A DNA stretch of 64,000 nucleotides from Elusimicrobiota bacterium. Lineage in GTDB: Bacteria; Elusimicrobiota; Elusimicrobia; UBA1565; UBA9628. The notes under the pieces are model-generated. The model searched no databases and was not told the origin of the DNA. It saw nothing but the letters and a program-made list of their open reading frames with translations. The translations under genes and the position numbers were made by a program. This document shows, in pieces, positions 18,288-63,996 of this stretch. Each line of letters starts with the position of its first letter. Within the stretch, counting starts at the first letter, position 1. The stretch lies in the NCBI GenBank assembly GCA_026388095.1, contig JAPLKL010000004.1, positions 1-64,000 on the forward strand, given 5' to 3'.

Positions 18288-20447
<2,160 letters not shown>

Positions 20448-20464: not shown

Positions 20465-20540
20465 CCCCAACGGAACCGCCGCCCCCTCAAGGGGGCGGCG
20501 GTTGCGCTTGAAGACGGCTTTGCCGTCTTCAAGCGCCATT
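20465..20540 (+). repeat. Tandem-hairpin 3' element, copy 1
   Basis: It begins 18 nt after the hppA stop. The order is CCCCAACGG; hairpin 1 with 13-bp arms AACCGCCGCCCCC / GGGGGCGGCGGTT and TCAA loop (20474-20503); hairpin 2 with 15-bp arms GCGCTTGAAGACGGC / GCCGTCTTCAAGCGC and TTT loop (20504-20536); CATT. Copy 2 at 55681-55747 on the other strand has the same order and the same outer sequences, while the paired bases differ in a compensatory way. No U tract follows, so it is not a classical intrinsic terminator. It may terminate, stabilise or process the transcript, or be a small repeat family. Confidence 0.8.
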
Positions 20541-20606: not shown

Positions 20607-20930
20607 ATGCCACCACAAGCGCAGCCCAACATGTGGGTCAATATGGTACCCATCGCGGCCGTCTTCGTCATCTTCTACTTCTTCCTCATCCGGCCGCAGC
20701 AGAAGCAGGCGAAGGAGCACCAGCAGATGCTCGATTCCGTCCAGAAGGGCGACCGCATCCTGACCACGGGCGGGCTCTACGGCACCGTCGTGGGGCTCAA
20801 GGGCACCGACCTGGAGGTGCGCTTCGCCGAGAACGTGAAGCTGACCCTGGCCCGCACCGGCATCGCCCGGGTGCTCAAGTCCGAGGCGGGCGAGACCGCC
20901 CCGGAGAAGGCCCAGACCGGCGTCTCCTGA
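20607..20930 (+). CDS. yajC: YajC preprotein translocase subunit
   Basis: 107 aa. It has one membrane helix (MVPIAAVFVIFYFFLIRP) followed by the family signature RPQQKQAKEHQQML, then a small cytoplasmic domain (GDRILTTGGLYGTVVGL). YajC associates with SecD and SecF, which follow at once (10-nt gap). ATG 20607 has a good AAGGAG site 4 nt upstream. Confidence 0.95.
   Translation: MPPQAQPNMWVNMVPIAAVFVIFYFFLIRPQQKQAKEHQQMLDSVQKGDRILTTGGLYGTVVGLKGTDLEVRFAENVKLTLARTGIARVLKSEAGETAPEKAQTGVS

Positions 20931-52836: not shown

Positions 52837-52849
<13 letters not shown>
52697..52849 (+). CDS. Possible 50-aa single-helix membrane protein
   Basis: [20 protein letters not shown] and on to the stop at 52847, in all 50 aa, with one strong membrane helix ([16 protein letters not shown]). 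It ends 13 nt inside uvrA in another frame. It lies within a lower-GC gap, about 40 nt after a -10 box, without a good ribosome-binding site. Base composition and the clean helix suggest a real small protein, but there is no homologue I recognise. Confidence 0.45.
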
Positions 52850-55671
<2,822 letters not shown>

Positions 55672-55680
55672 CCCCTCTTG

Positions 55681-55747
55681 AATGGCGCGCCGCCTTCGGC
55701 GGCGCGCAACCGGCGCCCCCTATGAGGGGGCGCCGGTTCCGTTGGGG
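55681..55747 (-). repeat. Tandem-hairpin 3' element, copy 2
   Basis: Read on the minus strand from 55747: CCCCAACGG; hairpin 1 with 13-bp arms AACCGGCGCCCCC / GGGGGCGCCGGTT and loop TCATA (55708-55738); hairpin 2 with 10-bp arms GCGCGCCGCC / GGCGGCGCGC and loop GAA (55685-55707); CATT. It begins 26 nt after the stop of the zinc-peptidase gene on the same strand and also lies just 3' of uvrA. Outer sequences equal copy 1 at 20465-20540, while the stems differ by paired changes. Confidence 0.8.
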
Positions 55748-55773: not shown

Positions 55774-56697
55774 CTACTCTCGCAGCGACTTGAAGCCCCT
55801 CATGGGCTTCAAGCCGGACGGCGCGAAGGACCCCGTGGACTTGCGCCCTTCGGGCTGGGGCTGGTCCTGGGTCTCGGCCTGGGCCTCCTCGACCTTGTGG
55901 CGCAGATCCGAACGGCCCAGCCAGCGCCGCCAGTCCTTCTCCAATGCCGGGAAGCCGTGATAGCGATAGGCGAGCCACAGGCTCTGCTCCACGTCCTTGC
56001 CGTCGCGGAGCTGCGCGCAGAAGTTCTTGAACTGCAGAGGCTGGTGGGCGCGGTAGAGGAAGTAGGCTATCGAGTAGGCCTGGACGTAGAAATCCCCGAC
56101 GATCGTCGAGTTGTGCAGGTCCTGGGTGGGGTTCAGGGAGAAGAACTGCTGCATGGGCAGCCAGGCGCTAGGCTTGGCCAGCACCATGTTCTGGAACCAG
56201 AGCGAACGCTCCGGGTTCTCGGGAGATTCGTCCTCCTCCATCATGGCGAGGCCCTCATTGAGCCAGGAGGGCGGCTCCTTGCCGGCGTCTCGCCAGAAAC
56301 CCGCGAAGAGCAAGTGCGTGGTCTCGTGCCTGATGACGCGCAGCAGGGCCTTGCGGTCCGGATTGTCCGGCACGGCTACGGCCTTGAGCTCGTAGAGAGC
56401 CAGGCCGTTGGACCAGGACGGCGGCTGGAACTCGCCCGAAAGGAACGATGGGGTATCCTTGTAGAGGTAGAGCTTGATGCGCTCCTTGGCCATCCACGGA
56501 GAGAACATCCCCAGGTCCATGCGCAGCCTGCCGTGCATGCGCTCCAGGCTCATGACGAACCCCGGTGGCGTCCACGGCATCTCATGCTCCACCACGAAGT
56601 GCGGCGATGTCGTCTCCTGCCAGTTCCAGCCCTTCTCCTTGGGCGCGGCGCTCAATGATGCTGATACCATGAGGCTGACGGTCAGCCACGGAAGCAT
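55774..56697 (-). CDS. Secreted gluzincin-type metallopeptidase (MA-like)
   Basis: 307 aa with signal peptide MLPWLTVSLMVSASLSAAP. The zinc site is VIRHETTHLLFAG (HExxH at 124-128) with the third ligand Glu148 in PSWLNEGLAMMEED. The upstream segment HFVVEHEMPW and the region YVQAYSIAYFLYR are typical of the peptidase MA-like family (usually about 250-300 aa). The C-terminus is polar and may be disordered. Its substrate is unknown. The gene has a leaderless-type promoter. Confidence 0.88.
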   Translation of the reverse strand: MLPWLTVSLMVSASLSAAPKEKGWNWQETTSPHFVVEHEMPWTPPGFVMSLERMHGRLRMDLGMFSPWMAKERIKLYLYKDTPSFLSGEFQPPSWSNGLALYELKAVAVPDNPDRKALLRVIRHETTHLLFAGFWRDAGKEPPSWLNEGLAMMEEDESPENPERSLWFQNMVLAKPSAWLPMQQFFSLNPTQDLHNSTIVGDFYVQAYSIAYFLYRAHQPLQFKNFCAQLRDGKDVEQSLWLAYRYHGFPALEKDWRRWLGRSDLRHKVEEAQAETQDQPQPEGRKSTGSFAPSGLKPMRGFKSLRE

Positions 56698-61295: not shown

Positions 61296-61645
61296 GGCGG
61301 CGGGCTTCCGACGATGTTCAGCGTGCACTGTCCGTTGACGAGCTTGGCCGCGATGGTCGCGGTCCCGTCGGCCGAGGTGTAGGAGCAGTCGCAGTTCCCG
61401 GGCATGCCGCTGTTCATGATGTAACCGTTGACCGGGGAGCAGGTGACCCCGCCGGCCGCGGACCAGCCTCTGATGATGGCGTCGAGCGTCGAGCGCACGC
61501 GCGCCTTGCCGGCCTCGCTGTCCTGGGCGCGCTTGAGGACCGTGGCCCGCTGCAGGATCAGGTTCATGATCCCGGCGGCGATGACGGAGCCCACGACCGC
61601 GGCCAGGAGGACCTGGACCAGGATGTTGCCATTCTTGCCTTTCAT
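61292..61645 (-). CDS. Type IV prepilin-like protein, Gln at +5
   Basis: 117 aa. The leader MKGKNG is followed by NILVQVLLAAVVGSVIAAGI, a prepilin N-terminus cut after Gly6. The conserved Glu at +5 is Gln. The C-terminal domain has four Cys (CSP, NCDCSY, GQCTL) in the same order as the prepilin at 63631. It was probably processed by a prepilin peptidase not in view. It overlaps the TMTC-like gene upstream (ATGA) and hpnK downstream (ATGA). Confidence 0.82.
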   Translation of the reverse strand: MKGKNGNILVQVLLAAVVGSVIAAGIMNLILQRATVLKRAQDSEAGKARVRSTLDAIIRGWSAAGGVTCSPVNGYIMNSGMPGNCDCSYTSADGTATIAAKLVNGQCTLNIVGSPPP

Positions 61646-63630: not shown

Positions 63631-63996
63631 TCAAAGCGGGGCTTTGGAGTTGATGGACAGGCCGCATCTCGCGCCACCGCCGCTAGACGTGGCCGTGGCC
63701 GTTATGATGGTTTTGCCGTCGCTGTAGGTGCAGTTGCAGCCTCCGGGCGTGCCGGGGACCGTAGCGGTGAAGCCTGCCGGCGTGCCGGAGCAATTGACGC
63801 CGCCGTTCTTGCTCCAGATGGCCAAGATGGCGTCCAGCCCCGAGTTCGTGGTGGCGGTGGTGACGGTGCTGTCCTGGCCGCGCTTGATGGCCTGGGAGCG
63901 CAGCAGGAGCAGATGCATCATCCCGGCCGCGATGATGGAGACTATGACCGCGGTCATGAGGACCTGGACGAGCACGCTGCCTTTCATCTTCCTCAT
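63631..63996 (-). CDS. Type IV prepilin-like protein, Gln at +5
   Basis: 121 aa from ATG 63996 (or ATG 63987). The leader MRKMKG precedes SVLVQVLMTAVIVSIIAAGM, again with Gln in place of Glu at +5. The rest carries Cys in NCSGT, GGCNCTYSDG and ARCGLS, the same pattern as the 61292 prepilin, so the two are paralogues with a shared fold. It starts near the window edge, so genes further upstream are not visible. Confidence 0.82.
   Translation of the reverse strand: MRKMKGSVLVQVLMTAVIVSIIAAGMMHLLLLRSQAIKRGQDSTVTTATTNSGLDAILAIWSKNGGVNCSGTPAGFTATVPGTPGGCNCTYSDGKTIITATATSSGGGARCGLSINSKAPL

Follow-up and report, generated by a model that had tools for sequence, protein, structure and literature searches.

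The window, a 64,000-nt stretch of an Elusimicrobiota genome, contains two short elements of the same build, and the question they raise is what kind of sequence keeps its outer parts fixed while its hairpin arms change and still pair. Copy 1, on the plus strand, consists of the head CCCCAACGG (20465..20473; the conserved AAC right after it is part of the hairpin 1 arm), a 13-bp hairpin 1 (AACCGCCGCCCCC-TCAA-GGGGGCGGCGGTT, 20474..20503), a 15-bp hairpin 2 (GCGCTTGAAGACGGC-TTT-GCCGTCTTCAAGCGC, 20504..20536) and the tail CATT (20537..20540), which elsewhere in the family is mostly TCG... Copy 2, on the minus strand, has the same head (55739..55747), a 14-bp hairpin 1 (AACCGGCGCCCCCT-CAT-AGGGGGCGCCGGTT, 55708..55738), a 10-bp hairpin 2 (GCGCGCCGCC-GAA-GGCGGCGCGC, 55685..55707) and again CATT (55681..55684). 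RNA folding agrees with these parts and gives two abutting hairpins for each copy (z −7.6 and −7.2), with none of 200 shuffles as stable. A sequence-only reading had described both copies, and its coordinates and order of parts are exact; so are the swap at pair 6 of hairpin 1 (C-G in copy 1, G-C in copy 2) and the hairpin 2 arms that differ yet pair perfectly. Its 13-bp hairpin 1 is correct for copy 1, whereas copy 2 has an extra T-A pair. We put at about 0.6 the probability that both copies are REP/BIME-like dispersed extragenic palindromic repeats that persist mainly behind genes, with arms kept complementary by template switching.

Copy 1 begins 17 nt past the stop (20447) of the membrane H+-translocating pyrophosphatase gene (H_PPase, hppA; 18288..20447, plus strand), and about 70 nt further on lies yajC (20608..20930, plus strand), followed by secD and secF, both named from sequence. 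Between copy 1 and yajC a promoter-like TG-n-TAGAAT site can be read by eye. The head of copy 2 lies 26 nt past the stop (55774) of a Peptidase_MA-like gene (Peptidase_MA_2 domain; 55774..56697, minus strand). This copy occupies a convergent gap, as the stop of uvrA (52837..55671, plus strand) is only 9 nt away on the other strand, a neighbour that the sequence-only reading had missed. The window also contains two pairs of direct repeats, at 3-220 and 2357-2575 (85% identical) and at 61517-61634 and 63868-63985 (80% identical), which are mutually unrelated, share a spacing of about 2.35 kb and lie at opposite ends of the window.

The two copies belong to a repeat family, as had been suspected. 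In the window's own genome (G000, 4.6 Mb, one of seven genomes of the genus, G000-G006), an exact bipartite pattern found 7 matches against 0 for a reversed control pattern, and, at E<=0.003, a covariance model (R1) built from six copies recovered about 33 full-length matches, with more in relatives. The 30-33 copies are dispersed, as single copies and one inverted pair. The core of about 70 nt has sharp boundaries in alignment, flanks outside it being unconserved, and is made up of a head of 12 nt, a pair of perfect hairpins that abut (about 13 bp and 10 bp; typically 13-14 bp for hairpin 1 and 10-11 bp for hairpin 2) and a short tail. The head is invariant in 31-32 copies, nearly all of which read CCCC[A/G]ACGGAAC. 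Two classes can be distinguished: in class A, GCG[C/A] closes hairpin 2 directly after CGGTT, and in class B there is one spacer base and hairpin 2 is closed by ACTCC, ATTCC and similar sequences. Divergent among themselves (median identity 0.74; best pair 0.90), the copies are old, and movement in this genome is therefore not recent. At one copy (L069, G000:C39:60155) an N stretch stands directly behind the element and is followed by a second hairpin 2 right arm, possibly a collapsed or masked duplication.

The sequence-only reading had placed both copies downstream of stop codons in the same orientation. Closeness to stops holds generally, but the orientation does not: among the 27 clearly intergenic copies of G000, 9 are in convergent gaps, 17 in tandem gaps (the element runs with the genes in 6 and opposite to them in 11) and 1 in a divergent gap. 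Measured against the 60-600 bp gaps of the same loci, with genes called by a simple codon-usage script, divergent gaps are avoided (1/27 copies versus 30/70 background gaps, Fisher p 8e-5). Since only one copy is divergent and tandem copies point both ways, the family avoids promoters without a fixed orientation.

Pairing within the family is close to perfect. In 31 G000 copies, each assessed by its own arms, Watson-Crick pairing accounts for 744 of 745 arm pairs; none is G-U or A-C, and one is of another kind. Paired cells make up 96.9% versus 74.2% in shuffles, the covariation score is 0.553 versus 0.126, and slid structures score at most 0.088. Two-sided changes occur at 16 of the 21 modelled pairs, and all 122 changed cells are two-sided, with 0 one-sided; the 20 unpaired cells represent two A-T pairs exclusive to class A and are found in class B copies. 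Among relatives, approximate counts in which some loci enter twice gave 1777 Watson-Crick, 6 G-U, 6 A-C and 28 other pairs for G004, and 218 Watson-Crick and 9 irregular pairs for G005. As a G-U pair reads as A-C on the opposite strand, the equal numbers in G004 indicate no strand preference. The hairpin 2 loop in G000 is TTC in 11 of 31 copies and its reverse complement GAA in 6 of 31, and two copies 450 bp apart (L056 and L056b) have the same arms with the loop inverted. The idea that loop orientation is adapted to the transcribed strand was discarded, GAA being about as frequent as TTC among G000 copies with minus/minus neighbours (counted by eye). The expectation of further, covarying copies was borne out, and the covariation is very strong. 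Selection on the RNA does not follow from it, given the lack of G-U pairs and strand bias and the one-sided mismatches in one relative's orthologues, all of which would agree with arm copying in DNA as well.

These orthologues allow paired change to be observed in situ. At the copy 1 site between HppA and YajC, G005 has the same element, its head nearly unchanged, with many paired and two unpaired changes; the double hairpin that G001 has there carries another head. Where copy 2 stands, only the right part of the element is left in G005, and the G001 site is taken by a 17-bp hairpin that is unrelated. Copies present in both of two compared genomes, with arms that differ in sequence but remain complementary, were found at L049/L194, L063/L205, L059/L197 and G001 C2:325/G005 C66:33870 (L223/L224). 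Other sites show partial elements, namely heads without hairpins (L067/L210, L071/L217), half elements (L192, L208) and hairpins without head (L060/L214), and in G005 there are decayed copies with one-sided mismatches (L055/L206, L069/L213) whose G000 counterparts are perfect. No hairpin at all is present in the orthologous gaps L203, L204 and L207, the last of which, compared with L070, is the one clean empty site, and no target duplication was recognised there. Double hairpins with another head occupy the orthologous sites L191, L215 and L220. A second double-hairpin family (GGTYCCG..CGGRACC-CG-hairpin-CCATTCCTCGG, with head GAGGTYCC and tail CCATTCCTCGG) has about 16-20 G000 copies (e.g., G000:C47:5659-5726, L077; loci L230-L259), is arranged in inverted pairs in G001, with a spacing of about 115 bp, and takes up some sites where the orthologous position has the first family.

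The first family is present in 6/7 genomes of the genus. Across the phylum, a scan with stricter filters, which loses weak copies, matched 11/295 genomes from five genera, two families and one order; outside the genus the repeat is thus sparse within its order, with 0 in the other phylum genomes sampled. Named records having the pattern together with both hairpins are all Elusimicrobia MAGs, and pattern matches in Rhodococcus, Allokutzneria and others outside Elusimicrobia lack the hairpins. G004 has 92 matches, mostly clustered, with 27/30 close neighbours alternating in orientation, TRF periods of 185 and 202 bp and gaps between neighbours mostly of 10-40 nt. This array layout is that of BIMEs. 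Many pairs of G004 copies on different contigs are >=90% identical, against the median of 74% in G000.

Some relatives carry the repeat inside insertion sequences (ISs). In G191, copies lie within a multi-copy IS that encodes a DUF772/DDE_Tnp_1 transposase (L170 2376-4219, G191:C16), which is why they are found at contig ends. Two copies in inverted orientation are enclosed by its terminal repeats (CCTAGGA..TGAGCAA.TAGTCGG), and at least 7 IS ends have a copy just within the terminal repeat, inverted between both ends; we take this IS to be IS1182-like. In G221, a copy lies between the stop of a transposase-like ORF, for which a Pfam scan gave no match, and the IS end. An AACGGC / CAACGAC-rich stretch separates that copy from the IS end (L183 1830-1960, G221:C14), and similar motifs are also found near many G000 copies. 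The suggested association with a REP-type tyrosine transposase (RAYT) did not hold up when linked genes were looked for in the genus: Y1_Tnp genes are present in 6/7 of its genomes, none flanked by copies, and among 19 PF01797 (Y1) loci one has a copy, 1.2 kb off. Both Y1 genes of G000 have no copy nearby.

On the REP/BIME-like reading, the repeat would have spread, through present or past mobility, to many non-homologous sites in G000, into alternating arrays in G004 and to the insides of ISs in other relatives, and it would persist mainly behind genes, where it does little harm and could have a role as a bidirectional 3'-end hairpin or terminator. Its arms would change fast and stay complementary if one arm served as template for the other at replication (template switching, or palindrome correction) in DNA. 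Such copying would give perfect arms, two-sided changes, absence of strand bias and loop inversion, and the TTC/GAA loops and the L056 pair fit the last of these. DNA-level arm copying is favoured, not proven, over RNA selection, because G-U pairs are lacking, the strands are symmetrical and copies decay in one relative; G-U intermediates on the transcribed strand and preserved orthologues, both expected under RNA selection, were not seen. Use of both strands would suppress G-U pairs, however, and some selection for the hairpin in RNA may act on top of arm copying. Several observations stand against the REP/BIME-like reading. TTC and GAA loops would also be expected from selection of UUCG-type loops on either strand, the head of the copy between HppA and YajC is conserved in two species, a hint of selection, and double hairpins with another head (L191, L215, L220) are what would be expected of a useful hairpin. 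The divergence of the G000 copies speaks against recent movement, no linked transposase was found in the genus, and there is only one clean empty site and no established target duplication. Loss of the hairpin nuclease SbcD (TIGR00619) was considered as a cause. SbcD has no match in 7/7 genus genomes, and 148/150 phylum genomes drawn had no match above the family cut-off, which only 2 exceed, so its absence, shared by nearly all phylum genomes drawn, is at most permissive; it may make perfect palindromes tolerable.

A possible but doubtful alternative is that the element works in both directions as an intrinsic terminator or as a protector of 3' ends, with two abutting, U-tract-less (V-shaped) hairpins kept paired by RNA selection from both strands. 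Terminators of abutting, U-less form have been described (PMC8355165), G-U pairs would be excluded as well if both strands were used, and the copies lie close behind stops, including those of convergent gaps, and are nearly absent from divergent ones. Copy 1 stands between hppA and the promoter-like site before yajC, transposase genes end beside a copy in two relatives, and at the corresponding position some relatives have a single or a double hairpin with another sequence (L191, L193, L214). Against this, a U-run is missing from both sides (T makes up 3.2 of the 12 nt behind hairpin 2) and a terminator scan missed the element, which together rule out a canonical terminator with a U-run; orthologous gaps have no hairpin (L203, L204, L207) or a decayed one (L206, L213); and arms of >=10 bp are rare window-wide (11 versus 6-8 in shuffles), so the element is not the genome's usual terminator. 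Unlikely, though worth stating, is the broader proposal of a class of double-hairpin repeats, with two or more families distinguished by their heads, in which template switching would continually rewrite the arms; these would stay perfect in one lineage and decay in the orthologous copies of another, and the class would show strong apparent RNA covariation without RNA selection and spread by non-RAYT transposition. It is quite improbable that the copies are cargo or end sequences of ISs, i.e., remnants of decayed hairpin-carrying elements such as the DDE_Tnp_1/DUF772 element of G191: the IS ends of G191 and the G221 copy would suit such an origin, but the flanks in G000 are unconserved right outside the core, with no IS ends, and IS carriage follows more simply from the repeat being common. 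Chance likeness of two hairpins, or of ordinary terminators, might be suggested by the 14-nt head, which in a 2-mismatch scan is by itself not significant in the window; the 33 copies, the sharp invariant head and the 0 control matches already refute it, and its probability is practically nil.

How, then, does the REP/BIME-like reading compare with known systems? The claim that no described element has this form is supported by the curated Rfam models, which gave no match at curated thresholds or at E<=0.1, and no earlier report of such repeats in Elusimicrobiota was found in the literature searched, but the form is close to that of REP/BIME repeats. Spacer inversion with homogenisation of arms is a described outcome of template switching (PMC8604942; also PMC8794818). 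Those hairpins share with the present family multi-base compensatory change, perfect arms and loop inversion; the cases described there come from rRNA genes and from coding inverted repeats in yeast, whereas here a bacterial repeat family is concerned. Covariation is usually taken to prove that an RNA is functional. In this dispersed bacterial repeat it is extreme and G-U pairs are lacking, and if arm copying is indeed the cause, strong apparent RNA covariation can arise without RNA selection. Orthologues decaying in one relative offer natural replicates for separating selection from palindrome correction.

Intrinsic terminators likewise have a GC-rich hairpin 3' of the stop, but also a U-tract, which the present repeat lacks. 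V-shaped U-less terminators (WebGeSTer classes; PMC8355165) resemble it in having two abutting hairpins just past the stop codon, a likeness that rests on place and shape, whereas the Elusimicrobiota repeat is dispersed in both orientations, with a conserved unpaired head and perfect palindromes. REPINs and MITEs are similarly dispersed and non-coding, with paired inverted units as in G004, but the repeat has no recognised parent transposase ends or target duplication.

Close in form are REP/BIME sequences. These are short extragenic palindromes whose hairpin has a conserved, unpaired tag on its 5' side; they occur in many copies behind genes, avoid divergent promoters, have heterogeneous stems and form alternating-orientation arrays (PMC3733652, PMC8266576). 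The Elusimicrobiota repeat resembles the GTAG and CGTC super-families of E. coli and Pseudomonas in being extragenic, in its many copies behind genes, in divergent avoidance, in heterogeneous stems and, in G004, in alternating arrays; its copy number is moderate (about 33 in G000, 92 matches in G004). Membership of the GTAG/CGTC REPs was rejected on tag, hairpin number and RAYT. The tag is CCCC[A/G]ACGG, and in the 26 nt around the head GTAG occurs in 0/31 copies and CGTC in 3/31. A REP is a single palindrome of 20-40(50) nt (PMC3733652/PMC8266576) with one, often imperfect, hairpin, whereas the Elusimicrobiota repeat has two abutting perfect ones of 13 + 10 bp. RAYT genes are flanked by their REPs and none is linked here, a situation also described for CGTC REPs (PMC3733652/PMC8266576). 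The Elusimicrobiota repeat is thus REP-like, outside the described REP families, and adds Elusimicrobiota to the range of REP/BIME-like repeats, there with a new tag and two hairpins.
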